From a virus, in IMG/VR virus record IMGVR_UViG_3300044623_000860, positions 1 through 27,657 of that record: a DNA stretch of 27,657 nucleotides. One strand, 5' to 3'. Both the position numbers and the translations under genes were made by a program. Of the stretch, positions 870-20,105 are shown in pieces; within the stretch, counting starts at the first letter, position 1, and each line of letters starts with the position of its first letter. The notes below the pieces were generated by a model, which was not told the DNA's origin, searched no databases, and worked only from the letters and a program-made list of their open reading frames with translations.

Positions 870-1069
870 AAAAACTAGAACAATACTGCAAAGTTAGGAA
901 TATCAAAGCTACTTTTGTGGAAGGTATTCTAATTGACCCTTTGCCTGTGGTTAAGTCAAACTATAGAGTAAGAAAAGAACCTTACTTTATTGATTTGGCG
1001 GTTAAAAGATACGGATGTTCAACGGTGGTAGATGCAATGTTTAATAAGCAAATGACATTGATCATATGA
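857..1069 (+). CDS. Small unknown protein (70 aa)
   Basis: 70 aa; a short N-terminal helix (QQLEKLEQYCKVRN) is followed by a mixed segment with several valines and prolines and a C-terminal helix (FIDLAVKRYGCSTVVDAMF). Its TGA at 1067-1069 overlaps the ATG of the sigma-like gene at 1066 (ATGA), so the two are probably translationally coupled. No family recognised; the coupling suggests a regulatory or accessory partner but that is inference only. Confidence 0.6.
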   Translation: MQQLEKLEQYCKVRNIKATFVEGILIDPLPVVKSNYRVRKEPYFIDLAVKRYGCSTVVDAMFNKQMTLII

Positions 1070-3384: not shown

Positions 3385-3411
3385 ACACAAATATTAAATT
3401 AATCGTTTAAA
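3385..3411 (+). promoter_or_regulatory. Recurrent start-proximal motif 1 (ACAAAT...CGTTTA), candidate phage promoter
   Basis: In the 31-nt gap after terL, an ACAAAT box (3387-3392) is followed after 11 nt by CGTT (3404-3407). CGTT lies exactly 8 nt before the ATG at 3416. The same arrangement recurs in the gaps before 11728, 14189 and 17027. If it is a promoter, transcription would start at or very near the ATG and the mRNA would be almost leaderless. Confidence 0.55.
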
Positions 3412-3415
3412 AATT

Positions 3416-4123
3416 ATGAAATTAGAATTAACAATACCAACAACTTTAGATGAAATCCCATTAATGCATTATCAGAAATTTATGGAGGTTTCAAAGAACT
3501 CAAATGATGATGAATTTACAGCACAAAAAATGATACAGATCTTTTGTGGAATTGAACTAAAAGAAGTTGTGAAAATTGCGTTCAATGATATGTTGGACCT
3601 GGTTAACCATTTTAATAAATTGTTTTCTGAAATACCGAAATTAAAACCTACATTTAAGATTAAAGATTTAGAACTTGGTATGATACCAAACTTTGATAAA
3701 ATTACATGGGAGGAATATATTGAACTAGAAAGTCAATTTAAAGACTTCGATACGTTTCACAAAGCTATGGCAGTATTGTACAGACCAGTAATTGAGAAAA
3801 ATAAAAAAGGTCAATATCTTATAGCTCCATTTAACAACGTTGAGGAGTTTAGCGATTTAATGAAATATACTCCATTATCGGTTGCATTAAGTTCTCATAT
3901 TTTTTTTTGGAATTTAGAAAGGGAGTTGTTAACAGCTACTCTCAACTATTTGGAGATACAGATGAAGAAACTGAACAAGAGCAATCGAATGATTTTAGCG
4001 AAGAAAATCAATTCAGCAAACAATGGGGATGGTATCAGTCAATTTATGCAGTTGCAAAGGGAGACGTTACAAAATTTGATGAAGTCCTCAGAACAGAACT
4101 ATTTACCATACTTAACTTTTTAA
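3416..4123 (+). CDS. Tail assembly chaperone, gpG-like (zero-frame product)
   Basis: 235 aa, helical and acidic in the N-terminal half (MKLELTIPTTLDEIPLMHYQ) with a C-terminal part from ~164 that includes NLERELLTATLNYLE and NGDGISQ. This plan matches the tail assembly chaperones (lambda gpG type) of Bacteroidetes phages, which bind the tape measure protein and recruit tail tube subunits. The next frame overlaps its last 217 nt and encodes the expected gpT-like domain, so the gene probably makes two products: this one and a -1 frameshift fusion of about 256 aa. It starts 31 nt after terL, preceded by the recurrent CGTT motif. Far from the tape measure gene (5.3 kb), which is unusual for a chaperone. 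Confidence 0.75.
   Translation: MKLELTIPTTLDEIPLMHYQKFMEVSKNSNDDEFTAQKMIQIFCGIELKEVVKIAFNDMLDLVNHFNKLFSEIPKLKPTFKIKDLELGMIPNFDKITWEEYIELESQFKDFDTFHKAMAVLYRPVIEKNKKGQYLIAPFNNVEEFSDLMKYTPLSVALSSHIFFWNLERELLTATLNYLEIQMKKLNKSNRMILAKKINSANNGDGISQFMQLQRETLQNLMKSSEQNYLPYLTF
3901..3907 (+). other. Candidate -1 ribosomal frameshift slippery site (T TTT TTT)
   Basis: Within a run of nine T (3900-3908), the zero-frame codons are ATT TTT TTT TGG. The heptamer T TTT TTT at 3901-3907 is a canonical -1 slippery sequence: both tRNAs can re-pair one base back, and reading then continues in the gpT-like frame with TTG at 3907. The -1 frame is open from 3853 (TAG at 3850-3852) to 4185, so the slip point lies inside the permitted window. 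No convincing downstream stem or pseudoknot could be drawn by eye. Confidence 0.7.
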
Positions 4124-4185
4124 CTTTCGAGAAGCAAAAGAATAGAATTGAAATAAACCAATTAAAAAAACAACGATTAAAATGA
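3907..4185 (+). CDS. gpT-like domain of tail assembly chaperone, expressed by -1 frameshift
   Basis: About 92 codons in the -1 frame relative to the preceding gene. There is no ATG at its beginning; the first possible start is TTG at 3907, inside the T run. The product has an acidic Glu/Gln-rich linker, then QWGWYQSIYAVAKGDVTKFDEV and FLTFEKQKNRIEINQLKKQ. This is the W-G-W-Y ... GD-x-T-x-F ... L-x-F-E-K pattern typical of the C-terminal domain of Bacteroidetes phage tail chaperones. It is most simply read as the C-terminal half of a fusion made by slippage at 3901-3907. An independent TTG start is possible but less likely. The stop at 4183-4185 overlaps the next ATG. Confidence 0.75.
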   Translation: MEFRKGVVNSYSQLFGDTDEETEQEQSNDFSEENQFSKQWGWYQSIYAVAKGDVTKFDEVLRTELFTILNFLTFEKQKNRIEINQLKKQRLK

Positions 4186-4637
4186 GTGGATTTTACGACA
4201 TAGTGACAAAACTTTATGATAGTGTTAACAATGATAGTTTAGTTAATCAAACGACTAAGGGCGACCTTGCAAGCGTATTAAATAACAAACAAAACTTGTT
4301 CCCTTTATGTCATATAATGGTAAATAGTTCGACATTTGATAAGCAAATATTAGTGTTTAATATATCAATCATTTGCATGGACCTAGTAGATTTTAGCAAG
4401 GATCAAACGGTTACATTATACACAGGGAATAATAATGAAGACGATGTAATGAACACTACTTTATCAATACTAAATAGACTTTACGAAAGTATGTATAGAG
4501 GTTCTTTGTTTAGTGATCTATATCAAATCGAAAACGTGGCAAATTGTGAGCCTTTTTATGATAAGTTTGAAGAGAATGTAGCAGGGTGGACTATGACTTT
4601 TGATGTTATTTGTGAGAATTCTATGGTAATATGTTAG
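4182..4637 (+). CDS. Conserved phage structural protein (probable tail completion/terminator-like)
   Basis: 151 aa. The N-terminus is helical (YDIVTKLYDSVNNDSLVN), followed by FPLCHIMVNSSTFDKQILVFNISIICMD and then TGNNNEDDVMNTTLSILNRLYESM. The pattern N-(D/N)-N-E-D-D-x-x-N-T-x-L-x-x-L-N-R-L-Y and a closing GWTMTFDV strand are hallmarks of a small family found next to gp10-like proteins in Bacteroidetes phages. Its size and position before an HK97-gp10-like gene suggest a tail terminator or neck role, which is inferred from context. It starts at an ATGA overlap with the previous stop and overlaps the next gene by 7 nt. Confidence 0.65.
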   Translation: MSGFYDIVTKLYDSVNNDSLVNQTTKGDLASVLNNKQNLFPLCHIMVNSSTFDKQILVFNISIICMDLVDFSKDQTVTLYTGNNNEDDVMNTTLSILNRLYESMYRGSLFSDLYQIENVANCEPFYDKFEENVAGWTMTFDVICENSMVIC

Positions 4638-5146
4638 AAACTGAAAAGGAATTAAAGAAGTTCAGAGACTACGTTATAAAAGAAAGTAGAACAAACTTAA
4701 CTAAGCTAAAAAAGAATAGCTCTAAAAAGCTTTATAATAGCTTAAAAGGGGAATACAAACTAATGGCAAATTCATTTAGCTTATATTTTTCTATGGAAGA
4801 CTATGGACACTTTCAGGATAAAGGAGTAGATGGTTTAAAGAAGTCTCAAGGTTCTGAATATTCATTTAAAAAAGGTGTGCCTAGCAAAGCAATGTTAGGT
4901 AGTTTGGATAAATGGATAGTAAGAAAAGGATTAGCACCTAGAAATAAACAAGGTAAATTTGTAAATAGATTATCTTTAAAATTTGCAATAGCAAAAGGAA
5001 TATTTAATAAAGGTATAAAACGTTCTTTATTCTTTACCAAACCATTTGAATATGCTTATAAAAGATTACCCGAAGAATTAGTCACTAAATACGGTTTAGA
5101 TGCAATTACGTTATTTAATTTAACAATAGAACAACCGAAAAAATGA
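4631..5146 (+). CDS. HK97 gp10-like tail completion / neck protein
   Basis: 171 aa, basic. Key stretch: MEDYGHFQDKGVDGLKKSQG, then SLDKWIVRKGLAPRNKQGKF and LKFAIAKGIFNKGIKRSLFF, ending in KPFEYAYKRLPEELVTKYGL. The Y-G-x-F-x-D-x-G-V motif, the W-I-V-R-K-G segment and the final helix match gp10-like head-tail joining or tail completion proteins. Such proteins cap the tail tube or join it to the neck. It sits between the terminator-like gene and a large tail protein, overlapping neighbours by a few bases at each side, so the three are probably translated together. Confidence 0.7.
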   Translation: MLETEKELKKFRDYVIKESRTNLTKLKKNSSKKLYNSLKGEYKLMANSFSLYFSMEDYGHFQDKGVDGLKKSQGSEYSFKKGVPSKAMLGSLDKWIVRKGLAPRNKQGKFVNRLSLKFAIAKGIFNKGIKRSLFFTKPFEYAYKRLPEELVTKYGLDAITLFNLTIEQPKK

Positions 5147-6195
5147 GTATAATATTAACAAAAAGTCCTCACATTGTAGAAGTAACTCATCCAAGTTTAG
5201 AGGGTGGTAAAGTAGAAATATATCTATTTAAAGCCGATGTTTTACCTCCTACTGTGCCACAATATACACTTAGTAAATTAACTCCCGCTACTAATGTAGA
5301 TAGTGTTTATTTTGATGTTGCACCGTACATTAATGAATTTATAACTAGCAATTCATACACTCCAAATGTATCAACAAATAATGTAAGTTTACCAATTGAG
5401 GCATATTGTAGGGTTGAAATAAAAAAATATAGATTAGTTGCGGGGGTTTACACTTTAGTTGATTTAACGGGGTTCTTTTGTTTGAAGGGATATATGGAGC
5501 AATCTATATCAATAGACCAATTAACAAATTCAGATCTTTTATTAGCTCCAAAAACTTACTATTATTATTATAATTCAGCAAATCCAACTGCTATTCCTTT
5601 TGGTGATATTACTTTATATAATAATACTGAATTATTTTATAGATATACTGATCTAGTTAATGGAGCTTTTTATGAATATAGTATAGCTTCAAATGGTTTT
5701 AAAAAGATTTATAAAGTTTATCCAACATATGCATCTCATGGTAATAAGTTGGAGGTTATTTCTGATATAACAGGATTAGTTGCAACGTATTATTTCAGAC
5801 CAATTGAAGAATGTAGATACACTCCTGTAACTTTAGATTTTATAAACAAATACGGAGCGTGGCAAAGAGAGTTTTTATTTAAGAACTCAACTGATAGTAT
5901 AAATGTAGAAAATCAATCTTATAAGAATTATAGAGCTATACCAAACGTTTTTAATGTTCAAGAAAGTTTAGTTACTTCATTTAATACAAATGGAAGTGAA
6001 AGCATTAAAACAAATACAGGATGGGTTAATGAGGACTTTAAAGACACTATTAAACAAATATTACTTAGTGATAGGATTTTGATAAATAATAGACCTGCTA
6101 CAATAACAACTAAGCAAGTGGACCTACAAAAAAACATAAACAATAAGTTGATTAATTATTCTTTGGACTTTCAATTTTCTAACTCTATAATATGA
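5143..6195 (+). CDS. Minor tail / tail-tip structural protein
   Basis: 350 aa, beta-rich throughout, with no transmembrane segment. It begins with a strand-rich module (IILTKSPHIVEVTHPSLEGG, then KVEIYLFKADVLPP and VYFDVAPYINEFI), a plan I associate with large structural proteins encoded before the distal tail protein in Bacteroidetes phages. A central part is rich in Tyr and Asn, and the C-terminus returns to paired strands. No enzymatic motif is seen. A contractile sheath was considered because of size, but no sheath-like sequence is recognisable. It overlaps both neighbours by 4 nt (ATGA). Confidence 0.6.
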   Translation: MSIILTKSPHIVEVTHPSLEGGKVEIYLFKADVLPPTVPQYTLSKLTPATNVDSVYFDVAPYINEFITSNSYTPNVSTNNVSLPIEAYCRVEIKKYRLVAGVYTLVDLTGFFCLKGYMEQSISIDQLTNSDLLLAPKTYYYYYNSANPTAIPFGDITLYNNTELFYRYTDLVNGAFYEYSIASNGFKKIYKVYPTYASHGNKLEVISDITGLVATYYFRPIEECRYTPVTLDFINKYGAWQREFLFKNSTDSINVENQSYKNYRAIPNVFNVQESLVTSFNTNGSESIKTNTGWVNEDFKDTIKQILLSDRILINNRPATITTKQVDLQKNINNKLINYSLDFQFSNSII

Positions 6196-8228
6196 AAAGA
6201 CAGGTAGACATATACATTGAAGGTACAACGAAAAATAATTACACAAAATTAGATTTATTTGATGATGAAAAAATAAACATATCTAGTTCAATTCAAAACG
6301 TTCAGGATATTTCAAAAGTTTATACAGATTTTAGTCAGTCATTTACGGTACCAGCTTCGGACAATAATAATAAGATATTTGAATACTTTTACCAAAACGA
6401 TGTTGACAATAAAATCGATCATAATTTAAGGCGCAACGCTTACATTGAAATTGGATTAGTTCCGTTTAGAAGTGGTAAAATTCAGTTAGAAGGTAGTAGC
6501 GTAAAAAATGGAAAAATACAACATTATTCAATTACTTTTTACGGTGACTTAGTTAGTTTAAAAGATACTTTTGGGAATACTAAAATAAATCAATTAGACT
6601 ACACTTTTGTTTCAAATCCTTATAGTGGTACGGAGGTGAAAAATAGAATAGTAGATAATACAACAGATTATGATGTTAGGTACCCATTAATTGCAAGTGA
6701 GAGTTTTTGGAGTTATCAAGACGGAACGAGCACCGATATAAGCACTTCAAAAGGTCGAGTTGATTGGAGGGAGTTATTTCCTGCTATAAAAGTGAGTAAG
6801 ATATTTGAAGCAATCCAAAATAAATATGGGTTAACTTTTCAATCTACATTCTTACAAACTCAAAAATTTAAGAAGTTATTTTTGTGGTGTAAAAACACTG
6901 ATAATTTAGATAATAAAATAAATGGAAGCGATTTGCCAATTACTTCATTTACTGAATATCATGACTGGATAGGAATAAATTACAGCATTTATAACAACGA
7001 CAATAACAGTTATAATTTATTTAGTTCTAAAGCTAATATATTTATTAAAAAAACTGCAAACATTGTAACATTCACAATAGATAATACTATACTTATTTCT
7101 GATCCACAATATATATTTGAAATTGATAAATACATTAATGGTATTTTTCATTCAACAGTTATTTTAGATACAAAAGTTGATAATAGTTTACAGATTTACT
7201 ATGTCAATGGTAGTTCTTACAATGAAGTTTTAACTTTAAAAATAAGAAGTCAACAAAGCATAGTTTTAAAATATACTATTTCTGTTCAAAGATTATACGA
7301 TAACACAAATCCAACAGCTCAAAATGGTGGTTATGTAATTGCGCAAAATACTATAGGATTAAATTTAAATAATACTTCAAACAGTATTTATACAAATATG
7401 CCCGACATAACAGTAGCGGATTTTTTTAGTGGTATATTAAAGGAATTTAATTTAACTTGTTATTCCGTTGGAGTTGATACTTTTCAAATAGAACCACTAG
7501 ATAATTGGTATTCAAAAGGTGCTATAATTGACGTTACTAAATATGTGGACATAGATACAATTTCAGTAGATCGTTTGCCACTTTATAAAAATGTATCTTT
7601 TAACTACCAAAAAAGTGAAAGTTTTTTAAATAGACAGTGGGGGAATGCAGCGGGTAGAGAATGGGGTGATATTTCAAACAATTATCCATACGATGGGGGA
7701 GAATATAAAGTAGAAGTACCTTTTGAAAATTTACAATTCAATAGGTTTACAAATACTGATGCGCAAGTTGGTTATTGCTTAACTCCTTCACCGGATTTCA
7801 AACCTTATATACCTAAGCCTATTCTATTATATTATAATGGTTCAGAATTAATAAATTTGAAGTTTTATGATGGAACAAGTGAAATAAATATATTAAATTA
7901 TGCTGTTTTTGGTCAGGATTTATTATATAATAATCAGGTTTATTCCCTTAATTTTTCAAGTGATACATCAACTTGGTATAATACTTTAATTGAAAATTCA
8001 CTTTTTGCAATATATTATTTTGGTTACCTATCAAATTTATTTAATGCTAAAAATAGATTGACTAAAATTAAGGCATATTTTCCTATTGGTTTGATTACCT
8101 CGTTACGTTTGAACGATAGGCTCGTTATACAAGATAAGAGGTACATAATTAATAGTATAAATTCAGACATTACTACGGGTGAAGTATCTTTAGAATTAAT
8201 AAACGATTTTAGACCAGTAATAGGATGA
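6192..8228 (+). CDS. Large tail-tip/baseplate-type structural protein
   Basis: 678 aa, beta-rich, Asn/Tyr-rich. The N-terminal ~130 residues are the most recognisable part: MKRQVDIYIEG, NVQDISKVYTDFSQSFTVPA, NNKIFEYFYQNDVDN, then RNAYIEIGLVPFRSGKIQLEG. This D-I-S-K-x-(F/Y)-T-D-F-S-Q-x-F-T-V-P-A pattern marks a conserved virion protein of Bacteroidetes tailed phages, probably a distal tail or baseplate hub component. The middle region (about 150-450) is variable. A C-terminal strand module (about 635-678; LNDRLVIQDKRYIINSINSD) is again conserved-looking. No peptidase or glycosidase motif was found. ATGA junctions couple it with both neighbours. Confidence 0.65.
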   Translation: MKRQVDIYIEGTTKNNYTKLDLFDDEKINISSSIQNVQDISKVYTDFSQSFTVPASDNNNKIFEYFYQNDVDNKIDHNLRRNAYIEIGLVPFRSGKIQLEGSSVKNGKIQHYSITFYGDLVSLKDTFGNTKINQLDYTFVSNPYSGTEVKNRIVDNTTDYDVRYPLIASESFWSYQDGTSTDISTSKGRVDWRELFPAIKVSKIFEAIQNKYGLTFQSTFLQTQKFKKLFLWCKNTDNLDNKINGSDLPITSFTEYHDWIGINYSIYNNDNNSYNLFSSKANIFIKKTANIVTFTIDNTILISDPQYIFEIDKYINGIFHSTVILDTKVDNSLQIYYVNGSSYNEVLTLKIRSQQSIVLKYTISVQRLYDNTNPTAQNGGYVIAQNTIGLNLNNTSNSIYTNMPDITVADFFSGILKEFNLTCYSVGVDTFQIEPLDNWYSKGAIIDVTKYVDIDTISVDRLPLYKNVSFNYQKSESFLNRQWGNAAGREWGDISNNYPYDGGEYKVEVPFENLQFNRFTNTDAQVGYCLTPSPDFKPYIPKPILLYYNGSELINLKFYDGTSEINILNYAVFGQDLLYNNQVYSLNFSSDTSTWYNTLIENSLFAIYYFGYLSNLFNAKNRLTKIKAYFPIGLITSLRLNDRLVIQDKRYIINSINSDITTGEVSLELINDFRPVIG

Positions 8229-8536
8229 TATACGAGATTGAAGGATTAGTTCCAAACCAAACAGATAGCAACGGGGTTACTTTTACGGGAAGTACGGGCG
8301 TTACTCCGGTACCGTCAAATATTACAAGTGATGCTTTGATTGAGGTCACAATTGCACCGGATCCGAATCCTATATTTTATTTTAGAGGTGAAGAAAGTGG
8401 ATACATTTTAAGGGATGAAGAAAGTGGATTTATCTTAAGAAATGAACAAGGCGTAACTTATTTACCATTTTTAGAGATGAATTGGACCGATACTTTTGGA
8501 GAAACATTTTTGCAACCAATATTTATTAATTTATGA
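8225..8536 (+). CDS. Small tail-associated protein with a tandem 9-residue repeat
   Basis: 103 aa. The N-terminal half is Thr/Ser/Gly/Pro-rich (TFTGSTGVTPVPSNITSD), as in linker or fibre-type proteins. Residues ~56-73 hold a perfect-length tandem repeat, EESGYILRD then EESGFILRN, and the C-terminus is LEMNWTDTFGETFLQPIFI. No enzymatic domain. It begins in an ATGA overlap with the tail-tip protein and ends in an ATGA overlap with the next small gene. A minor tail accessory role is inferred from position only. Confidence 0.55.
   Translation: MIYEIEGLVPNQTDSNGVTFTGSTGVTPVPSNITSDALIEVTIAPDPNPIFYFRGEESGYILRDEESGFILRNEQGVTYLPFLEMNWTDTFGETFLQPIFINL
8390..8443 (+). repeat. Tandem 27-bp repeat inside a tail gene
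   Basis: Two adjacent copies of 27 nt, 8390-8416 and 8417-8443, both beginning GAAGAAAGTGGAT and encoding EESG(Y/F)ILR(D/N). The reading frame is kept. The copies differ at several, mostly third-position, bases, so the duplication is not recent. Confidence 0.7.
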
Positions 8537-8679
8537 AGAATTTATTACAACTATTATCAATTTCTAATTTCTACGGTGAAAGTGAAAATATAGATATTGC
8601 AAAGGGTATAAATGAAATACCTAAGACTTATAAAGAAGCTCTTAAACAAGCGTTTAGAAAAATTAAAGCAATGAAATAA
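8533..8679 (+). CDS. Small unknown protein (48 aa) before the tape measure gene
   Basis: 48 aa from ATG 8533, which overlaps the previous stop (ATGA), to TAA 8677-8679, which overlaps the tape measure ATG (TAATG). Sequence: MKNLLQLLSISNFYGESENI, then a lysine-rich helix ending FRKIKAMK. Coupling on both sides makes it a convincing gene despite its length. No family recognised; it could be a chaperone or adaptor for the tape measure, but this is position-based speculation. Confidence 0.65.
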   Translation: MKNLLQLLSISNFYGESENIDIAKGINEIPKTYKEALKQAFRKIKAMK

Positions 8680-10475
8680 TGGCAGAAACTAAAACAGTTA
8701 ATTTAAATGTTGAAACAAATTTAGGTAGTTTAAAGAGCCAGTTAAAAGAAGCTCAAAGAGATGTTGAAAAGTTATCGGAAAAGTTTGGCGCAACATCAGT
8801 AGAAGCTACAAATGCAGCGAAAAAAGCAGCACAATTAAAAGATGCTATAGGTGACGCTAAAGCCTTGACTGATGCGTTTAACCCAGATGCTAAATTCAAT
8901 GCTTTAGGAGGCGCTTTACAAGGTGTTGCGGGTGGTTTTAGTGCTGTTCAAGGTGCTATGGGATTATTTGGTGTTGAGAGTAAAGACTTAGAAGCTACAA
9001 TGCTAAAAGTTCAAAGCGCTATGGCCTTTTCACAGGGTATCAATTCCGTAATGGGTGCGAAGGATGCTTTTACAAACTTAGCAGCAGTAATAGGTAAAAC
9101 AGCAATAGGTCAACAAGCATTAAATGTAGTTCAAGTTATAGGGACAGCGGTTATGAAGGCTTTGAACTTCGTGATGAAACAAAACCCTATACTTTTAATT
9201 GTAGCGGGAATAACAGCAGCGGTTGCAGCATTTAAATACTTTTCTAGTTCAACCGAAACAGCAACAGAAAAAAACGAGAAATTAAACGCAAGTTTAGAAC
9301 GTCAACAAAGAGCCTTAGATCGTAACTCAGCATCTATAAAACAGTCAGGTGAAAACAGATTGAAAATATTAGTTGCTCAGGGTGCAAGTGAACAAAATAT
9401 ACACGATCAAACTTTAAGAAACTTAAATAATGATGAAAAGGCAAGGCAAAAAAATGTAGACTTTTTAAAAGAAAAGCTAAAAGAAAAAAGAGCTATTTTA
9501 AAACAAGCCTATTTAGATGAAGATACCGACTTAATTAAATCGGTAAAAAAAGAAGTAAGCGAAACAAAGGGTAAATATATTGATCTAGTTAGTCAAAAGA
9601 AAAACAATATAACAAATATTAGGGTTGAAGAAATTACCTATAAAAATAAAGTAAAAGCAGATGAAGATGAAAAAACAGCCAAGCAACAAGAAGAAAATAG
9701 AAAAAGAATAGCAGACAATAAAGCTAAAAATGCTAAAATTGCTGAAGATAATAAGATCGCCGCAGAAAAACATAAGCAGGAATTAATAGATAATGCAAAT
9801 GATTTAAATGCTTCATTATTAGCAAGCGATCAAGCAAGGCAAAAAGCAAAAGAAGAACAAGCTGTAGCGGATGCAAAAATGCGAGCGGATGGATTGGAAG
9901 CTTTAAAAGAAAATGCAAAAGCACAATTAAAAATAAATGAAGAAGAATCCGCAGCCGCTAAACTTTTACAAAATCAAAAAATTGACGCAGTTCAAAGTAC
10001 ACTTTCAACTATTGGAAACTTAGCAGAATTATTTGCGGGTAAATCTCGTAAACAACAAGAGACTGCATTTAAAATTCAAAAGGCTGCAAATATAGCAAAT
10101 GCAACTATAGATGCGTTCAAGGCTGCTAACGGTGCTTATTCATCTTTATCAGCTATTCCAGTTGTCGGTGTTGGTTTGGGTATTGCAGCAGCAGGAGCGG
10201 CACTTACTGCAGGTTTATTAAATGTAAAGAAAATATCAGCTACAAAATTCGAGGGCGGTGGCGCTACGGGTGGCGGTGGTTCTAATCCTTCAATTGGCGG
10301 TGGTGGTGGTGCACCTCAAAGCGTTATAACTCCAAACTTTAATATAGTAGGCAATAACGGCACAAACCAATTAGAACAATTAAAACAAGCACCAATACAA
10401 GCCTATGTAGTAAGTGGTGAAATGTCAACTCAACAATCATTAGATAGAAACAGATTAAGAAATGCAACGTTATAA
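8679..10475 (+). CDS. Tape measure protein
   Basis: 598 aa. N-terminal ~60 residues are helical with the pattern LKSQLKEAQRDVEKLSEKFG, followed by Ala/Gly-rich segments, a hydrophobic stretch at ~160-188 (ALNFVMKQNPILLIVAGITA), a long Lys/Glu/Gln/Ala-rich coiled-coil region (~195-460), a second hydrophobic stretch at ~488-518, and a Gly-rich linker around 525-545. This is the classic tape measure layout: it sets tail length and is released during DNA ejection. With the ~1.5 angstrom per residue rule a tail near 90 nm would be expected. No lysozyme or peptidase domain is embedded. Unusually, it precedes the capsid genes and is 4.5 kb from its chaperone pair. Confidence 0.88.
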   Translation: MAETKTVNLNVETNLGSLKSQLKEAQRDVEKLSEKFGATSVEATNAAKKAAQLKDAIGDAKALTDAFNPDAKFNALGGALQGVAGGFSAVQGAMGLFGVESKDLEATMLKVQSAMAFSQGINSVMGAKDAFTNLAAVIGKTAIGQQALNVVQVIGTAVMKALNFVMKQNPILLIVAGITAAVAAFKYFSSSTETATEKNEKLNASLERQQRALDRNSASIKQSGENRLKILVAQGASEQNIHDQTLRNLNNDEKARQKNVDFLKEKLKEKRAILKQAYLDEDTDLIKSVKKEVSETKGKYIDLVSQKKNNITNIRVEEITYKNKVKADEDEKTAKQQEENRKRIADNKAKNAKIAEDNKIAAEKHKQELIDNANDLNASLLASDQARQKAKEEQAVADAKMRADGLEALKENAKAQLKINEEESAAAKLLQNQKIDAVQSTLSTIGNLAELFAGKSRKQQETAFKIQKAANIANATIDAFKAANGAYSSLSAIPVVGVGLGIAAAGAALTAGLLNVKKISATKFEGGGATGGGGSNPSIGGGGGAPQSVITPNFNIVGNNGTNQLEQLKQAPIQAYVVSGEMSTQQSLDRNRLRNATL

Positions 10476-10479
10476 TAAT
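10468..10479 (+). promoter_or_regulatory. CGTT 8 nt before ATG 10480 (weak form of the recurrent motif)
   Basis: CGTT at 10468-10471, inside the last codons of the tape measure gene, is 8 nt from the ATG at 10480. The upstream ACAAAT box seen in the four intergenic copies is only approximated (ACAGAT, 19-14 nt before). It may be a degenerate copy or chance. Confidence 0.3.
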
Positions 10480-11070
10480 ATGAAAAAAGAACTACAAACA
10501 ATTGAATTAACAATTAAAGACGAGCTAAAAGAAGGTGTTTTCGCAATAAGTTTTGTCGATAATCCTGCAATTGAGGAACCATTTTTAATGCTTAATGCCT
10601 TAGAAGTTGAGTTAAAGGTTATTGATGAAGCTAAAAGAGAGGTTATCGGACTTGCTTTAGTGCCAAATAAGAAGATATTAAGACGTAAAGACAACGTCGA
10701 ATTTAACATTGAGTTCTCAGAACAAACAATTGAGAAAGTTCAAGAGCTTTATATGAAAAATTTACGAGCAAATAACGTTACAATTGACCACGAAAAGCCA
10801 GTTAACGGAGTTTCTTTGATTGAAAGTTGGATAGTTGAAGACCCTAAAAATGACAAATCAAACATATATGGACTAAATGCGGTTAAGGGTGCGTGGGTTG
10901 TTAAGATGAAAATCTATAATGATGAAGTTTACGAGGGTGTTAAGCTAGGTAAATTCAACGGGTTTTCAATCGAAGGAATGTTTGATGGTTTGGATCAACT
11001 TAAAATGAGTGAACTTACAGAAGATGAAAAATTGATTGAAGAAATAAGAAGTTTGTTAGATAAATTATGA
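10480..11070 (+). CDS. XkdF-type prohead protease / capsid maturation protein
   Basis: 196 aa from ATG 10480; an in-frame ATG at 10462 would add six residues and overlap the tape measure gene. Recognisable elements: FAISFVDNPAIEEPFL near the N-terminus, then VIGLALVPNKKILRR, a conserved NNVTIDHEKPVNGVSLIESW with the presumptive catalytic His, VEDPKNDKSNIYGLN, and VKLGKFNGFSIEGMF. This is the XkdF family of phage proteases or protease-related capsid proteins, widespread in Bacteroidetes and Firmicutes phages. It is expected to cleave scaffold and capsid precursors during prohead maturation. The scaffold-like gene and major capsid gene follow within 2 kb. Confidence 0.82.
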   Translation: MKKELQTIELTIKDELKEGVFAISFVDNPAIEEPFLMLNALEVELKVIDEAKREVIGLALVPNKKILRRKDNVEFNIEFSEQTIEKVQELYMKNLRANNVTIDHEKPVNGVSLIESWIVEDPKNDKSNIYGLNAVKGAWVVKMKIYNDEVYEGVKLGKFNGFSIEGMFDGLDQLKMSELTEDEKLIEEIRSLLDKL

Positions 11071-11666
11071 TTGACTTAAATTATAATAGGCGATATAAAG
11101 AAGTTACTACAATTGCAGAAAGTGACTACATTTATTATGATAATAATACTCAAATATTACAACGTATTTTATATTCTGATTTAATTTATTCTATTAATTT
11201 ACTTGTACGTATACCTAGATATGGATCTTTCTATTCTACACAAACACAAACTCCAACAATTAACACAATTACAGCAATTACCTATAATAATACAGATACA
11301 AGTGCAACTTATGGAGTTTCAATTGTAGATAATAGCAAAGTAACAGTGGATATTGAAGGTGTTTATAATATCCAATTTTCGGCTCAATTAAATCGGTTGA
11401 GTGGTGGGGTTTCTAGGCAAGCTATAATATGGTTAAGAAAAAACGGTGTAGATGTACCCTCAACTTCGACACACGTAACAATGCAAGCGAATGCTGATTT
11501 CTTAGTCGCATCTTGGAATTTCTATATAAAATTAGAGGCTAATTCTTATGCTCAATTAATGATAGTTCAAAATGATGCAATTGAATTGATTTATGAGGTT
11601 GCAAATACTGCGGTGCCTTACCCAATTGTACCATCTGTAATATTAACAATACAAAAGATAAGTTAA
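11067..11666 (+). CDS. C1q/TNF-like jelly-roll virion protein with fibre-type N-terminal motif
   Basis: 199 aa. Residues ~65-195 form a beta-sandwich of the C1q-like type: FYSTQTQTPTINTITAITYN, then VDIEGVYNIQFSAQLNRLSG, IIWLRKNGVDVPSTSTHV, NADFLVASWNFYIKLEANSY, LMIVQND. Such domains are used in phage fibres and capsid decorations, and usually trimerise. The N-terminal ~40 residues (TIAESDYIYYDNNTQILQRI) resemble the N-terminal motif of the fibre proteins at 17027 and 17479, suggesting a shared way of attaching to the virion. Its location between the protease and scaffold-like genes points to a head fibre or decoration. It overlaps the protease gene by 4 nt (ATGA). Confidence 0.65.
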   Translation: MIDLNYNRRYKEVTTIAESDYIYYDNNTQILQRILYSDLIYSINLLVRIPRYGSFYSTQTQTPTINTITAITYNNTDTSATYGVSIVDNSKVTVDIEGVYNIQFSAQLNRLSGGVSRQAIIWLRKNGVDVPSTSTHVTMQANADFLVASWNFYIKLEANSYAQLMIVQNDAIELIYEVANTAVPYPIVPSVILTIQKIS

Positions 11667-11697
11667 ATAAAATCAACAAGTTAAGTAAATAAATTGA

Positions 11698-11722
11698 AAC
11701 AAATATAAATTAAATCGTTAAT
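11698..11722 (+). promoter_or_regulatory. Recurrent start-proximal motif 2 (ACAAAT...CGTTAA), candidate phage promoter
   Basis: In the 61-nt gap before the scaffold-like gene, ACAAAT (11699-11704) is followed by an A/T spacer and CGTT (11716-11719), 8 nt before ATG 11728. Spacing and composition match the copies before 3416, 14189 and 17027. No terminator precedes it, so it would add transcription of the scaffold and capsid genes. Confidence 0.55.
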
Positions 11723-11727
11723 TAGTT

Positions 11728-12306
11728 ATGAATAAAGAAGTAAAAAAAGCAATTAAAACACTTAAAACCTTTTTAGGAATGGAAACAAAATTAGAGGATA
11801 TGCCTTTAGCAGATGGAATGACAACTATACAGGCAGATACGTTTGAAGTTGGTGAGGCGGTATTTATCGTTGGACCTGAAGGATCTTTAGTAGAATTAGA
11901 GCCAGGAGAATATGAACTTGCAGATGGCAGAATGTTAGTAGTTGAAGTCGCAGGAATTATCGCATCTATCAATGAAGTAGCTGAAGAGGAAGTAGAAGTA
12001 GAACCGACTGAAGTCCCTGTAGAAGCTGAGAAAGTTGCACCACAAACAACAAAAGCAAAAAAGATTATTAAATCAACAGTTGAAGAACAGCATTTTTCTA
12101 AATTAGAGGCTAAGATTGAAGAATTAGAAGCTAAGATTTTAGAACTTTCTAAGGTTAAAGAAGTTGTTGAAAATGTAGTTGAGGAAGTTGTTGAACTTAC
12201 AGAAGTTAAAGCAATTAAATTTAACCCTGAAAACAAAACTAAAAACAATATTCCATTAACTCCATTAGAGCGTTTTAGAGATATTAAAAGTAGAATGAAT
12301 GGATAA
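11728..12306 (+). CDS. Scaffold-like / capsid assembly protein
   Basis: 192 aa, very acidic. Residues ~25-85 form a beta-rich module (LADGMTTIQADTFEVGEAVF, then GEYELADGRMLVVEVAGIIA) that in related phages accompanies prohead proteases or scaffolds. It is followed by an acidic low-complexity stretch (EEEVEVEPTEVPVEAEKV), a long coiled coil at ~118-160, and a short C-terminal segment (PLERFRDIKSRMNG) of the kind scaffolds use to bind capsid subunits. It lies just before the major capsid gene and after the protease. The scaffold call is based on composition and position; a scaffold is normally removed from the mature virion. Confidence 0.65.
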   Translation: MNKEVKKAIKTLKTFLGMETKLEDMPLADGMTTIQADTFEVGEAVFIVGPEGSLVELEPGEYELADGRMLVVEVAGIIASINEVAEEEVEVEPTEVPVEAEKVAPQTTKAKKIIKSTVEEQHFSKLEAKIEELEAKILELSKVKEVVENVVEEVVELTEVKAIKFNPENKTKNNIPLTPLERFRDIKSRMNG

Positions 12307-12466
12307 GTTTGTAAATCCATTTGAGGTGGGTGTAAATTACGAACACTTTTTAAAAGCATTGGGAGCAAAGACAATTAAAACATATTGCAAGGGAAAATTA
12401 ACCAACGAACAAATAGAGTGGTTAATAAATGATTTGAAACATTATAAATTAAATAAAAACAAATAA
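12299..12466 (+). CDS. Small conserved phage protein (55 aa) between scaffold and capsid genes
   Basis: 55 aa from ATG 12299, overlapping the previous stop by 8 nt and ending 2 nt before the capsid ATG. Sequence features: YEHFLKALGAKTIKTYCKGK, then LTNEQIEWLINDLKHYK. The pattern G-(A/V)-K-(S/T)-(V/I)-K-T-Y-x-K-G-K-L-T-N-E-Q-I-E is familiar to me from small genes encoded just before Bacteroidetes phage capsid genes. Function unknown; it may be an assembly cofactor. Confidence 0.7.
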   Translation: MDKFVNPFEVGVNYEHFLKALGAKTIKTYCKGKLTNEQIEWLINDLKHYKLNKNK

Positions 12467-12468
12467 AC

Positions 12469-13485
12469 ATGGCAATTTCTTACACTAGTGTAGACATTAG
12501 AGGAAAAGCAGTAGAACCAATTTTAGAAGAAGTTTTATTTGCTAACAAAACGGTATCAGATGGTTACGTAACTTTCGCAACTGATATTAAAGCAGGAACA
12601 ATTATCACTGAGGCGGGGGTAGATGTAACCGCTCAATTGTACACAGGTTCGGCTTTATCTAGTTCGGGTTCTATGTCAATCAATGACAGAATTGTTACTC
12701 CAACTAAATTAGAGTATAAACAAACTTTTTTACAGGAAGCATTAAGAGCTGGTAGATTTGGTCGTTCTATGAATCCGGGAGCATTCAACATTGAAAGTTC
12801 AGAATTCGCAAGTACAGTATTAGCACAATATGCGCCTAATATTTCACAGGATGCTGAAAGTTTATTCTGGGGTGGTATTACTGCAGCTACACAAACAGCA
12901 ATTGCAGCATTAACTCCTGGAGCTGCTCAAGGTTCTATGACAGCAGCTACACAAACAGCGGTTGCAGCACTTTCACCAAGATTACTTGATGGCGTATTCT
13001 CCAAAATTTTATACGACAATTCTGCATTAGGTGGTTATGTTAAAGTTACAGGAACTACGGTAACTAGCTCAAATTTATCGGCGCAAATGGCCCTTATTTA
13101 TGCAGCAATACCAGCAGAAAATTTAGCTGATACAGTTTCACCAACAGCTATTTATTGCCCAAGAGCTTGGAGACAATTAGCACGTATCGCTAACAACTCT
13201 GTAGGTGCTGCACAACAAATTAACTTTGAGTTTGATAGCTCAGCAGCAGATGCAAAATGTTTCTACAATGGTGTTGAATTGATTTTCGTACCTACTCCTA
13301 ATAATTTAATGGCATACGCTCAAAGAAAAGCAGCTATTATGTGGTGTACTGATTTAGTTGATGATCTTAACAAATTTGAAGTTGGTAAATTAACTAACGA
13401 CGGTGACGTTCAATTCGTAAGATCAATCTATACATTAGCTGCACACGTTGGTCAAGCATCTAAAGGTGTACTTTACGGAGGATAG
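12469..13485 (+). CDS. Major capsid protein (HK97-fold type)
   Basis: 338 aa. N-terminal arm (SYTSVDIRGKAVEPILEEVL), then ATDIKAGTIITEAGVDVTAQ, a helix-containing P-domain-like region with YCPRAWRQLARIANNSV, and a C-terminal segment NGVELIFVPTPNNLMAYAQR that resembles the closing strands of HK97-fold capsids of Bacteroidetes phages. Residues ~137-170 hold an internal duplication (TAATQTAIAALTP / TAATQTAVAALSP). The gene is relatively richer in Ala and Gly codons than its neighbours, as expected for an abundant protein, and is followed directly by a strong terminator. Together with the protease and scaffold-like genes it forms the head assembly set. Confidence 0.88.
   Translation: MAISYTSVDIRGKAVEPILEEVLFANKTVSDGYVTFATDIKAGTIITEAGVDVTAQLYTGSALSSSGSMSINDRIVTPTKLEYKQTFLQEALRAGRFGRSMNPGAFNIESSEFASTVLAQYAPNISQDAESLFWGGITAATQTAIAALTPGAAQGSMTAATQTAVAALSPRLLDGVFSKILYDNSALGGYVKVTGTTVTSSNLSAQMALIYAAIPAENLADTVSPTAIYCPRAWRQLARIANNSVGAAQQINFEFDSSAADAKCFYNGVELIFVPTPNNLMAYAQRKAAIMWCTDLVDDLNKFEVGKLTNDGDVQFVRSIYTLAAHVGQASKGVLYGG
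12881..12969 (+). repeat. Direct repeat within the capsid gene
   Basis: Copies at 12881-12909 and 12941-12969, 60 bp apart, share the identical 17-mer GCAGCTACACAAACAGC and encode TAATQTA(I/V)AAL. The offset is a multiple of three, so the protein carries the same repeat. I recall similar repeats in related capsid proteins, so it is probably an old feature of the family. Confidence 0.7.
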
Positions 13486-13509
13486 GAATAAAATAAATTA
13501 ATAATCTAA

Positions 13510-13541
13510 GGGGGTGGTGAGAAATACGCTACCCCTTTTTT
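13510..13541 (+). terminator. Rho-independent terminator after the capsid gene
   Basis: A GC-rich stem, GGGGTGGTG (13511-13519) pairing with CGCTACCCC (13527-13535) with G-U pairs, is followed directly by TTTTTT (13536-13541). It stands 25 nt after the capsid stop. It would set the dose of capsid mRNA relative to the downstream tail tube gene. Confidence 0.88.
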
Positions 13542-13555
13542 AATACAAAAAAATT

Positions 13556-14104
13556 ATGGCTTGTAGTATAGCAGCAGGAAGGATTGAACAATGTAAAGAT
13601 AGTATTTCTGGTTTAAAAAATATTTATTTCATTAACTATCAAATTGAAAAAAGTGATGTAACTTATGATGTTACAAATACCGACTTAATAACAGCGGTTA
13701 CAAATGTAGATACACTTTATAAATACGAATTAAAAAGTTCAGAAAACACATTTGAACAAACAATTAATTCAGACAGAAATACAGGTACTACTTTTTTCAC
13801 ACAAACTTTGAATGTTAAGTTGAAAAAACAAGACATCGCAACTTCAAAAAATGTGAAATTATTAGCTTACGGAAGACCTCACATAGTTGTTGAAACAAAT
13901 GCAGGTCAATTTTTCTTAATGGGATTAAGACAAGGATCAGACGTTACTGCAGGTGCTTTGTCTAGTGGTGGTGCAATGGGTGACTTTAATGGTTATTCAT
14001 TAACTTTTGAGGCACAAGAGGAATGTTACGCAAATTTCTTGAATGCAGCTACTCAAACTGCAATGGTTACTTTGTTTACTTCGGCTACATTAGTTGTAGG
14101 ATAG
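13556..14104 (+). CDS. Major tail tube protein
   Basis: 182 aa. Starts MACSIAAGRIEQCKDSISGL with the sequence K-D-S-I-S-G-L-K-N-I-Y-F that marks tail tube proteins of Bacteroidetes phages. Later elements: LYKYELKSSENTFEQTINSD, TGTTFFTQTLNVKLKKQDIA, HIVVETNAGQFFLMGLRQGS and GDFNGYSLTFEAQEE. The fold is expected to be the beta-barrel that stacks in hexameric rings around the tape measure. Its placement next to the capsid gene, flanked by terminators on both sides, suggests independent high-level expression. No contractile sheath gene is adjacent. No good promoter was recognised in the 14 nt between terminator and ATG, so it may depend on read-through. Confidence 0.82.
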   Translation: MACSIAAGRIEQCKDSISGLKNIYFINYQIEKSDVTYDVTNTDLITAVTNVDTLYKYELKSSENTFEQTINSDRNTGTTFFTQTLNVKLKKQDIATSKNVKLLAYGRPHIVVETNAGQFFLMGLRQGSDVTAGALSSGGAMGDFNGYSLTFEAQEECYANFLNAATQTAMVTLFTSATLVVG

Positions 14105-14122
14105 TAATAAATAATTGATATT

Positions 14123-14154
14123 AAGGCTCTGCAGAAATGTAGGGCTTTTTTTTT
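14123..14154 (+). terminator. Rho-independent terminator after the tail tube gene
   Basis: An 11-bp stem with G-U pairs, AAGGCTCTGCA (14123-14133) with TGTAGGGCTTT (14138-14148), closes a GAAA tetraloop and runs into a T tract to 14154. Confidence 0.9.
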
Positions 14155-14156
14155 GA

Positions 14157-14184
14157 ATACAAATTTTGAAATAATACGTTAAAT
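14157..14184 (+). promoter_or_regulatory. Recurrent start-proximal motif 3 (ACAAAT...ACGTTAA), candidate phage promoter
   Basis: Directly after the terminator, ACAAAT (14159-14164) is followed by an A/T spacer and CGTT (14177-14180), 8 nt before ATG 14189. The position between a terminator and the first gene of a unit is where a promoter is needed, which makes this the best-placed copy of the motif. Confidence 0.6.
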
Positions 14185-14188
14185 TGAT

Positions 14189-14608
14189 ATGATTATATTG
14201 ACGACAGAAACAACGGAGCAAACGTTTAATTTTATCCCTAGAAATAAGGACATAGATTTTGACGTTTTCCCTGTTAGAGATGAACAAAGCAATGAAATTG
14301 TAAACCTACTTGTAAATAATTCAGCAGGAACGAGCTATAACAAGCTACAAATAACAGATGAACAAACAAATGAAACAATTGAACTAACTATTATTAGTAG
14401 TTATGCAGGTGAATACTATCACACTATAACAAGTGAATTTGAATTAATTGAAGGACACTTTTATATGATTAGAGTTTATAGAGATAGTACAACGCAAACA
14501 CGATTTTTAGGTAAGGTTTTTTGTACAGATCAAAGTTTGCCTTACAAAATTACTGAAGGAGTTTATAATCAAAAAACAAGTGAAAACGATTTTATAATAT
14601 ATGAATAA
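14189..14608 (+). CDS. Unknown small beta-rich virion-associated protein before the portal gene
   Basis: 139 aa, mostly beta: TTETTEQTFNFIPRNKDIDF, VFPVRDEQSNEIVNLLVNN, LQITDEQTNETIELTIISSY, GHFYMIRVYRDSTTQ and a closing YKITEGVYNQKTSENDF. The two D-E-Q-(S/T)-N-E segments (residues ~31 and ~58) suggest an internal duplication of an Ig-like or fibronectin-like sheet. Proteins of this size and plan occur next to portal genes in related phages, but I do not know a function. It overlaps the portal gene by 8 nt and is the first gene after the terminator and CGTT motif. Confidence 0.6.
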   Translation: MIILTTETTEQTFNFIPRNKDIDFDVFPVRDEQSNEIVNLLVNNSAGTSYNKLQITDEQTNETIELTIISSYAGEYYHTITSEFELIEGHFYMIRVYRDSTTQTRFLGKVFCTDQSLPYKITEGVYNQKTSENDFIIYE

Positions 14609-16487
14609 GCAAACTCAAATAATTGAATTAAGTCAATATACTACGCCCGTAATTACTGAACAAAGAAACGAGGGTTGGGTTGATTTTGGAAAAAAGAATG
14701 ATTACTATCAATTTCTTATAGATAGATTTCAAAATTCAGCTACAAATAACGCCGTTATTAATAACATTTGTAAACTTATTTACGGTCGTGGAATTACAGC
14801 ATTAGATGCTAGTAAAAAACCAACGGATTACGCTAACTTTTTGAGCCTTGTATCTAGTGATGATATTAAACGTATTATTTCAGATACTAAAATGTTAGGA
14901 CAATCAGCTATTCAGGTCCACTATAACAAAAAAAGAGAGGTTATAAAATTCTTACATTTGCCTGTTAATTTAATACGTTCAGAAAAGTGTAACGAAGACG
15001 GTGAAATATTAGGATATTACTATTCAGACAATTGGCAAAAAACAAGAGAATATAAACCTATTAGATACGATGCTTTTGGAACGTCAAATAGTGAGGTTGA
15101 AATATTAATGATACAACCCTATTCAGCAGGAATGAAATACTATTCTTATGTTGACTACCAAGGCGCACTTGATTACTGTATGTTGGAGGAGAAAGTTAGT
15201 GAATACCTTATAAATGAGGTTAGTAACTCTTTTGCCCCGACCAGTATAATTAATTTTAACAACGGACAAGCTACTCCAGAACAAAAAAGACAAATATCAG
15301 AAGACGTTACAAACAAGTTAACAGGGTCAACAGGAAAGAAAGTAATAATTTCATTTAATGACAATCCCGAAGCTAAAACAACTATTGACACTATTCAATT
15401 ACAAAAGGCTGCGGACCAATATCAGTATTTAAGTGACGAAAGTAGAAATAAAATATTAGTAGGTCACAATGTAACTTCACCGTTACTTTTTGGAATAGCT
15501 ACTTCAACGGGTTTTAGCTCAAATGCGGATGAGTTGAAAAATAGTGCTATCTTATTTGACAATATGGTAATCAGACCATACCAGGAATTAATAGTTGAGG
15601 CTTTTGATAAGATTTTAGCAGTAAATAACATTAGTTTAAACCTTGAATTCGTACCGTTACAACCTTTAGACAGTTCAGGAGAGTTAGCAAGCGGTGGATC
15701 TAAACGTATAATTGACGGTATTAACTCACTTTCTCCATTAGTAGCTAATAAAGTACTAGAAAGTATGACAGCAAATGAGATACGTGGGTTAGTTGGTTTA
15801 AATCCTGAGCAAGGTGGGAGCGATTTACAGCCACCAACAACGGATGGGACAACTTTAAAAGCTGAACTTTCAGAACTTGAATTATATTTAAATGAAATAG
15901 GAGAAGATTTAAACGAAAATGAGTGGGTAATTGTAGACGAAAGAGATGTTGACTATGAAGATGAAATTAATTTAGACGCTCAAATTGACGCTTTAAATAA
16001 CCCTAAACAAAATCTATTACAAAAGTTAGCAAGTGCGGTTAAATCTATTCCAAACGCAAAGAGTGAACAAGATAAAACTATCAAAGGTGTTAATTACAAA
16101 GTAAGATACCAATATACTGGTAACCCTTCACCTCAAAGAGATTTTTGTAAGGTAATGATGAAATCAAATAAATACTATCGTAAGGAAGATTTAGAAAGAG
16201 CAAATTCAAACGTTGTAAATCCTGGTTTTGGTCATAATGATGAAGCCTATAATTTGTTTTTATTTAAAGGTGGTCCACGATGTAAACATTCATTTAAGAG
16301 AGTAACTTTTATGTCAACAAATGGTATAGATGTAAATTCACCAAATGCGAAAACAATCGGAACAGATACAGCAAGTAAAAGAGGTTTTAAAGTTACAAAT
16401 CCTTATCAAGTTTCTATACAGCCAAACAACTTACCTAGAAAAGGATTTCATCCAAATAATGAAAATTTACCATCAGACGTTAAATAA
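14601..16487 (+). CDS. Portal protein with C-terminal Cys/His-containing domain
   Basis: 628 aa. Residues ~1-400 are portal-like: GWVDFGKKNDYYQFLIDRFQ, NNICKLIYGRGI, a stem/wing region with LPVNLIRSEKCNEDGEILGY, and the conserved QYLSDESRNKILVGHNVTSP then ATSTGFSSNADELKNS. Such proteins form the dodecameric DNA-entry ring that docks TerL. From ~410 an acidic linker leads to a second domain at ~495-580: YKVRYQYTGN, FCKVMMKSNKYYRKEDLERA, NPGFGHNDEAYNLFLFKGGP, then C561-K-H563. C516, C561 and H563 could bind metal. This fusion of portal with a head-morphogenesis-like tail domain occurs in Bacteroidetes phages. The gene lies 11.2 kb from terL, which is atypical. Confidence 0.85.
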   Translation: MNKQTQIIELSQYTTPVITEQRNEGWVDFGKKNDYYQFLIDRFQNSATNNAVINNICKLIYGRGITALDASKKPTDYANFLSLVSSDDIKRIISDTKMLGQSAIQVHYNKKREVIKFLHLPVNLIRSEKCNEDGEILGYYYSDNWQKTREYKPIRYDAFGTSNSEVEILMIQPYSAGMKYYSYVDYQGALDYCMLEEKVSEYLINEVSNSFAPTSIINFNNGQATPEQKRQISEDVTNKLTGSTGKKVIISFNDNPEAKTTIDTIQLQKAADQYQYLSDESRNKILVGHNVTSPLLFGIATSTGFSSNADELKNSAILFDNMVIRPYQELIVEAFDKILAVNNISLNLEFVPLQPLDSSGELASGGSKRIIDGINSLSPLVANKVLESMTANEIRGLVGLNPEQGGSDLQPPTTDGTTLKAELSELELYLNEIGEDLNENEWVIVDERDVDYEDEINLDAQIDALNNPKQNLLQKLASAVKSIPNAKSEQDKTIKGVNYKVRYQYTGNPSPQRDFCKVMMKSNKYYRKEDLERANSNVVNPGFGHNDEAYNLFLFKGGPRCKHSFKRVTFMSTNGIDVNSPNAKTIGTDTASKRGFKVTNPYQVSIQPNNLPRKGFHPNNENLPSDVK

Positions 16488-16489
16488 TT
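16478..16489 (+). promoter_or_regulatory. CGTT 8 nt before ATG 16490 (weak form of the recurrent motif)
   Basis: CGTT at 16478-16481 lies in the last codons of the portal gene, 8 nt before the connector ATG, followed by A/T bases as in the intergenic copies. No ACAAAT box stands at the usual distance (a CAAATA occurs further away), so it may be a partial site or chance. Confidence 0.25.
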
Positions 16490-16993
16490 ATGGCAAAAGT
16501 ATTATTAATTTCAAACAAAGATTTAGTTAAGTTCACGGCTCTAAATGGTAATATCGATCCAGATAAAGTTATGCATTTTATATCTATTGCACAGGATATT
16601 TATATTCAACAATATTTAGGTAGTAAACTATTGACAAAATTGCTTACAGACTATGCGAATAATACGTTAACAACGGATTACAGCAACTTAATTGACATTT
16701 ACTTAAAACCTATGTTAATTCACTTTACAGCGGTTGAAATGTACCCTTTTATAGCTTATTCAATAAGTAATAAAGGGGTGTACAAACATAGCGCAGAAAA
16801 TAGTGAAGTTGTAAGCAAAAATGAGGTAGATTATTTAGTTGAAAAGGAACGAGTAATAGCTGAGAATTACGCTCAAAGGTTTCTTAATTATATGAAATAT
16901 AACCACGAATTATTCTCTGAATATTACGACGTTTATAACGAAGATATTGCGCCAAAATTCAAAACCGATTTAACAAGTTGGTATCTCGATTAA
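16490..16993 (+). CDS. Head-tail connector protein (DUF6712-like)
   Basis: 167 aa, mainly helical. Elements: VLLISNKDLVKFTALNGNID, MHFISIAQDIYIQQYLGSKL, LKPMLIHFTAVEMYPFIAYS, NKGVYKHSAENSEVVSKNEV, and a Tyr-rich C-terminal helix region. This matches the connector-type protein typically placed after the portal or capsid gene in Bacteroidetes phages (DUF6712), expected to form the ring below the portal. It starts 2 nt after the portal stop and is followed by the fibre genes. Confidence 0.75.
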   Translation: MAKVLLISNKDLVKFTALNGNIDPDKVMHFISIAQDIYIQQYLGSKLLTKLLTDYANNTLTTDYSNLIDIYLKPMLIHFTAVEMYPFIAYSISNKGVYKHSAENSEVVSKNEVDYLVEKERVIAENYAQRFLNYMKYNHELFSEYYDVYNEDIAPKFKTDLTSWYLD

Positions 16994-17022
16994 ATACAAT
17001 AATTAAATAAATACGTTAATTA
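16994..17022 (+). promoter_or_regulatory. Recurrent start-proximal motif 4 (ACAATA...ACGTTAA), candidate phage promoter
   Basis: In the 33-nt gap before the first fibre gene, ACAATA (16996-17001) is followed by an A/T spacer and CGTT (17014-17017), 9 nt before ATG 17027. It differs from the other copies by one base in the upstream box and one nt in spacing. Confidence 0.5.
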
Positions 17023-17026
17023 CATA

Positions 17027-19809: not shown

Positions 19810-19827
19810 TTAAATCAATTATTTTAC

Positions 19828-19835
19828 TATATTTG
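19828..19835 (+). promoter_or_regulatory. Bacteroidetes-type -7 element (TATATTTG)
   Basis: TATATTTG matches the TAnnTTTG consensus and lies 25 nt before ATG 19861. No clear TTG -33 box is seen at the usual distance, so strength is uncertain. Confidence 0.55.
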
Positions 19836-19860
19836 TAATTCAAACTTAAAAGACAAAATT

Positions 19861-20085: not shown

Positions 20086-20105
20086 TTTTATCGGAAACTA
20101 TTGAA

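Follow-up and report, generated by a model that had tools for sequence, protein, structure and literature searches.

Four intergenic gaps in an uncultured phage genome carry the same short element just upstream of a start codon, which raises the question of what reads this element and where the resulting RNA would begin. The genome is IMG/VR virus record IMGVR_UViG_3300044623_000860, and the window, the whole stretch of DNA analysed, spans its 27.7 kb (27,657 nucleotides). It is A+T rich, with 31% G+C, and its gene order is typical for tailed flavobacterial phages. A sigma-like gene is followed by the small and large terminase genes and then by tail and structural genes, and lysis proteins and small membrane proteins are also encoded (Table 1). 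The presumed major capsid protein has a homologue in phage phi46:1 that was identified as a structural protein by mass spectrometry. A nucleotide search of phage records with the window returned no matches. The analysis below indicates that the four elements, named P1 to P4, are very likely late promoters of a phage-encoded ECF-type sigma factor, with transcripts beginning at the A of the ATG or within 1-2 nt of it. No RNA data support this reading and the family has no cultured member.

Table 1. Coordinates of the features discussed in the window
Feature	Position	Strand	Remarks
Putative phage-encoded ECF-type sigma factor	1066..1578	+	170 aa, regions 2 and 4 only
Arg65 of the sigma (DxxR, region 2.4)	1258-1260		Codon
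Small and large terminase genes	2089-3384
P1, predicted late promoter	3387..3409	+	ACAAAT-11-CGTTTA; 8 nt from CGTT to ATG 3416
First gene of the P1 transcription unit	3416..4123	+	Unknown function, phrog_32199-like
Doubtful extra site	10447..10471	+	GAAAC-16-CGTT, 8 nt before ATG 10480
Head protease gene	10480
P2, predicted late promoter	11699..11721	+	(GAA)ACAAAT-11-CGTTAA; 8 nt before ATG 11728
Presumed major capsid gene	12469-13485
Intrinsic-terminator-like hairpin with T tail	14123..14148	+	Immediately upstream of P3
P3, predicted late promoter	14159..14182	+	ACAAAT-12-CGTTAA; 8 nt before ATG 14189
CGTTAA before 16490	16478..16483	+	Coding; most likely chance
P4, predicted late promoter	16996..17019	+	ACAATA-12-CGTTAA; CGTT ends 9 nt before ATG 17027

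An element at the heads of gene blocks

The first-pass annotation had described four elements with CGTT placed 8, 8, 8 and 9 nt before the ATGs at 3416, 11728, 14189 and 17027. This held and the coordinates were right, while its spacer range of 11-14 nt held only in part, the measured range being 11-12 nt. The claimed excess of CGTT before starts was also confirmed: with the A of the ATG numbered +1, CGTT begins at -12 in 5 of the 46 window starts, against 0.09 expected. The fuller pattern, ACAAW followed by CGTTWA at the promoter position, occurs at 4 of these starts, compared with a mean of 0.001 under a first-order Markov null whose maximum was 1 in 3000 sets. The core AC-N15/16-CGTTWA is found five times on the two strands of the window, and four of the five copies are P1-P4. 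As also claimed, none of the four matches the host sigmaA-type element (TTG-17-21-TAnnTTTG), the TAnnTTTG box being absent from each.

Two further genes, at 10480 and 16490, had been proposed to carry the same signal; this part of the claim failed or is doubtful, as in both cases CGTT lies inside the upstream gene and is not conserved. At 10480 it falls within the last codons of that gene and is kept in the closest relatives only. Before 16490, the CGTTAA encodes the end of the upstream gene (...SDVK*) and is missing in nearly all relatives; one, L010, retains CGTT, also in coding sequence. With no -35 partner and a place within the upstream gene's coding sequence, this site is most likely a chance occurrence.

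Relatives were gathered through their capsid and terminase proteins, not through the motif, and comprised 160 related virus loci with 2824 starts. The annotation had suggested a motif search over the upstream regions of relatives, and the enrichment was strengthened by it: 97 of the 2824 starts have CGTT at exactly -12, accompanied by ACAA at -29 and TACA at -30, while each other offset yields about 9. A second form at -12 is AGTC. The P1 boxes are conserved before orthologues of 28-43% amino acid identity and the P3 boxes before orthologues of 29-44%; across this range (28-44%) the boxes stay at -12 and the spacer sequence diverges. The P2 gene precedes the major capsid gene by two genes, and in other lineages the P2 equivalent stands before a fused protease gene. 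An upstream gap of at least 25 nt is present at 91% of motif starts versus 28% of other starts, so motif starts are the heads of gene blocks. The element was never found upstream of the capsid gene itself, relatives included.

Chance, or the shared ancestry of a few intergenic gaps, could in principle account for such a pattern, and relatives do share sequence by descent. This explanation is all but excluded by the count in the window relative to its null, by the conservation of boxes between diverged spacers next to genes only 28-44% identical, and by a separate peak in contigs that were found by their sigma gene alone (below).

A second rival, offered as an alternative in the first-pass annotation, is a translation-start signal in which CGTT at -12 contacts the ribosome independently of transcription. 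The fixed distance to the ATG speaks for it. Against it, CGTT is coupled to an AC box at fixed spacing, the element is confined to the first genes of blocks, most genes, the major capsid gene among them, lack it, and lineage-specific letters of the -10 box follow the sigma (below). Furthermore, the A-rich stretch found at -14 to -11 of ordinary starts is absent at motif starts; the initiation context of F. johnsoniae includes A at -12 and -13 (PMC6847099). The translation signal is thus unsupported and very unlikely, and was rejected on the missing A-rich context and the restriction to block heads.

Other signals in the window were also noted. A G+C-rich hairpin with a T tail lies 3′ of the capsid gene (13510-13541). 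Hairpins occur at this position in all lineages, with differing sequences, and may represent a conserved terminator or attenuator before the next gene, which itself lacks a late promoter. Host-type TAnnTTTG boxes were found upstream of 19861, 20894, 24485 (a GTG start) and 25153, and probably also of 20200; the right part of the window (19800-25153) therefore seems to be transcribed by the host polymerase. Between 23009 and 26996, short proteins with a single membrane span are encoded (at 23009, 25153, 26018, 26349 and 26691), interspersed with candidate cell-wall-cleaving enzymes assigned by eye (21435, 23180 and 25326).

The predicted phage sigma factor and its association with the element

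The product of the sigma-like gene is predicted, by profile and by structure model, to be an ECF-type sigma; its activity in transcription is inferred. As a single sequence it gives only weak Pfam and PHROG matches, scoring 14.7 bits against Sigma70_r2 (Pfam cut-off 24) and 11.8 against Sigma70_r4_2 (cut-off 25.7). The Pfam gathering score is a curated cut-off and not a defining feature of ECF sigmas. Compared with solved structures, the family profile matches SigL (E 4e-6, residues 3-150) and SigW (E 9e-5, residues 18-150). The structure model has a mean pLDDT of 75, two domains and a low pTM, and its top matches in a structure search are ECF sigmas (AlgU, sigmaE, SigL). Residues 92-160 superpose on region 4 of E. 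coli sigmaE with an rmsd of 1.4 over 69 residues (Z 11.5). The 170-aa protein meets the ECF (group 4) criterion of regions 2 and 4 without region 3, and the model meets that of a region 4 fold, as a fold only, without data on -35 binding. A DxxR motif is present as D62-K-V-R65; in relatives it varies to DxxK and NxxN, with the promoter varying alongside.

A search of phage records with the sigma protein returned no matches, and a profile search of genome contigs with the sigma alignment returned only one Bacteroidetes MAG and proteobacterial ECF-like proteins. In one virus record, a 62.6-kb contig (L183 and L186, with L063), two different sigma homologues were observed.

The element AC-15/16-NGTY at -12 was counted in contig sets grouped by how the contigs had been found. 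In the capsid set it occurs at 90 of 903 starts (1.6 at other offsets), and in contigs found through the sigma alone (L218-290) at 27 of 1174 (again 1.6 at other offsets). Among relatives found through the large terminase (TerL), those with a sigma gene carry it at 9 of 336 starts and those without at 1 of 883, with 0.7 at other offsets in either case. The element is therefore found together with the phage sigma gene and is absent without it. This contrast is confounded with phage lineage, as sigma-less TerL relatives also differ in their downstream genes. Three cultured phages, Flavobacterium phage 11b and Cellulophaga phages phi46:1 and phi10:1, have the element at none of 123 starts; they were set aside as models, having neither sigma nor motif in the stretches read.

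At least 569 sigma-bearing contigs were matched, of which only a part entered the analysis. Within 227 sigma-bearing loci, many of them truncated at contig ends, a P1 satisfying the strict pattern was found in 123. When 32 contigs were searched as whole records, the first profile detected a sigma in 24; two more (G024 and G029) have divergent homologues and the remaining six appear to be fragments. Two capsid relatives, L070 and L076, were initially taken to lack both sigma and motif. They were rejected and are no longer used as negatives, as divergent sigma homologues are present in the remainder of these contigs. In L070, a different element, TGTCAC-N-AGTTAT, is repeated at the same three places (1319, 9191 and 11680). 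Its box lies 15-16 nt before the ATG, and L190 (415-936) was grouped with this observation.

The sigma gene itself is often preceded by a host-type box: TAnnTTTG lies within 80 nt of 46 of 101 sigma genes, versus 166 of 1456 other genes (p=3e-16). At many loci, host polymerase would thus make the sigma, which would in turn switch on the late genes. No perfect host promoter was found before the window's own sigma gene.

Covariation of region 2.4 with the -10 box

The -10 letters agree at 0.83 between promoters of one genome versus 0.56 between genomes (permutation p=0.0002, 14 capsid clusters), and hence the -10 box changes in concert within a genome. The base at -12 can be predicted from residue 65 of the sigma, which closes the DxxR motif in region 2.4: Arg goes with C and Lys with A, with exceptions. 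This pattern was first seen in 21 sigmas, where the exceptions are L168 and L181 (Lys with C) and L115 and L190 (Arg with G/A). In 26 sigma-found contigs the rule is respected, K occurring with A or G and the single R with C. Applied to 78 unexamined loci, it was followed by all nine distinct types that have P1, and contigs missed by the strict gene pattern agreed with it on inspection. After clustering at 70%, the 123 P1 contigs comprise 8 Arg-C, 1 Arg-other, 1 other-C and 19 other-other clusters (p=2e-5). Because the clusters retain some dependence on one another, the p-values for this coupling are guides only. Residue 65 has near-highest mutual information of all columns, with only three residue states. 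In another ECF sigma, the D of DxxR reads the G of CGTC (PMC3397946); by analogy, this would fit the R reading the neighboring base.

One subfamily contains two sigma types that differ almost solely in a block of regions 2.3-2.4. In the pair L204/L210, the -35 box and spacer are the same, as is the sigma outside this block, and the -10 boxes are TGTTAT and CGTTTA. The pair is an illustration rather than a proof: in a third contig, L209, which is short and belongs to a very mosaic family, a TGTT-type sigma accompanies a CGTT promoter, and for the ten near-isogenic contigs including L209 our hypergeometric estimate is p ~0.07. As a separate observation, the two sigma genes (L210 187-615, L204 141-569) form a mosaic in which the 2.3-2.4 patch has ~75% DNA identity and the flanks ~93%, which looks like a specificity exchanged by recombination; this is an inference.

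A sigma of the host could be proposed as the reader instead of the phage protein. The motif does resemble the SM6 CGT box of F. psychrophilum, a flavobacterium with CGT-box promoters and seven ECF sigmas (PMC9723704). However, the element occurs only with the phage sigma gene and its -10 box covaries with phage region 2.4, which makes a host ECF sigma very unlikely.

Predicted transcript starts, known systems and meaning

The A-rich -35 box with its invariant AC lies 15-16 nt upstream of the -10 CGTT. The element is called ECF-like because its two boxes are spaced as in ECF promoters, for example tGTTAC-N16-CGTC (PMC3397946). The distance from NGTY to the ATG is 8 nt in 107 matches, 7 nt in 7 and 9 nt in 4, while host-type TTG-TAnnTTTG promoters of the same contigs lie 4-56 nt from the ATG. 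T occupies -1 in 96% of motif starts versus 46% of other starts. T(-1)A(+1) is a usual transcription start. From the 8-nt distance, the T(-1)A(+1) and the missing A-rich context, the RNA is predicted to begin at the start codon and to form a leaderless mRNA; for P1 this would be at or near the A of ATG 3416. No 5′ ends are available. Such mRNAs are unusual for flavobacteria: they make up 5.5% of mapped mRNAs in F. psychrophilum (PMC9723704), and 87% of predicted transcripts in F. johnsoniae have leaders of more than 10 nt (PMC6847099).

A milder variant retains the phage-sigma promoters and places the RNA start a few nucleotides upstream or downstream of the ATG, leaving a very short leader or a partly missing start codon with another codon used. 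In its favor, the CGTC of a studied ECF promoter is numbered -13 to -10 (PMC3397946), one off from a start at the A; the P4 distance is 9 nt, and in the divergent L070 genome the box is farther away still. The sharp peak at 8 nt, the strong preference for T at -1 and the lack of a translation context upstream argue against it, and we consider it unlikely.

Transcription starting at or near the ATG from a phage-specific promoter, as the annotation had inferred, hence remains the best-supported reading, without 5′-end data. It rests on the coupled -35-like box, the fixed -35/-10 spacing, the fixed distance to the ATG, the intergenic placement, the dependence on the phage sigma gene and the covariation of region 2.4 with the -10 box. 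In the proposed mechanism, host core RNA polymerase carrying the phage sigma would read P1-P4. Region 4 would contact the -35 box and region 2 the CGTT 15-16 bp downstream. A -10 box 8 bp (once 9) before the ATG matches the ECF start-site distance, and would set the transcript start no more than 1-2 nt from the A of the ATG. Each virion-gene block would have a leaderless mRNA for its first gene, and early genes, in many relatives including the sigma gene, would be read from host-type TAnnTTTG promoters and carry ordinary leaders. The motif, its positions, its conservation, its co-occurrence with the sigma gene and their covariation are seen directly in the sequences. The activity of the sigma, the late timing, the precise 5′ ends and leaderless translation are inferred from sequence alone.

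Phage sigmas for late genes are known, such as T4 gp55, phiEco32 gp36 and 7-11 gp47 (PMC2988020, PMC8948821). In phiEco32 and 7-11, as proposed here, the phage sigma directs host core to late promoters whose places are syntenic, related phages differ in specificity, and 6-9 bp separate the start from the -10 box (PMC8948821). In contrast, their hosts differ, their promoters are tAATGTAtA and GTAAtg-16-aCTA, and gp36 has no recognizable region 4; no mention of a link to start codons was seen in that study. T4 gp55 is likewise a phage sigma for late genes (PMC2988020). Its promoters consist of a -10 box only and need the sliding clamp, whereas here a -35 box and a region 4 are present.

ECF sigmas with CGT(C/T) boxes are already known. 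Those of the Tt-RpoE1 type (PMC3397946) share with the present family a two-domain sigma, an AC-containing -35 box, an N15-16 spacer, a CGT(T/C) -10 box and DxxR in region 2.4. Unlike them, the sigma here is phage-encoded beside terminase genes with no anti-sigma gene seen, its promoters abut the start codon, and there is a natural Arg/Lys switch with C/A at -12. In F. psychrophilum, the SM6 CGT -10 box is assigned to ECF sigmas of a flavobacterium, but it serves host genes with ordinary leaders (PMC9723704). In the literature searched, which mostly did not cover subscription journals, no report was found that Bacteroidota phages encode ECF-type sigmas together with cognate late promoters, nor of start-codon-abutting promoters as a rule in these phages or of the Arg/Lys switch.

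A bolder reading, which we consider more likely than not, is that the late programme of a large Bacteroidota phage family depends on leaderless mRNAs made with ECF sigmas that the phages themselves encode. One region 2.4 residue would switch specificity, Arg reading C and Lys reading A at -12, with the promoters changing in concert.

Bacteroidota phages are very common and the timing of their genes is almost unknown; here the sigma, its promoters and the transcript starts can all be inferred from sequence. Should the mRNAs prove leaderless, the phage would produce its virion proteins in a way that is seldom seen in its host class. Natural sigma/promoter pairs are also numerous in the family, and some differ almost solely in region 2.4; they may serve to test what determines an ECF sigma's choice of the base preceding the -10 GT.
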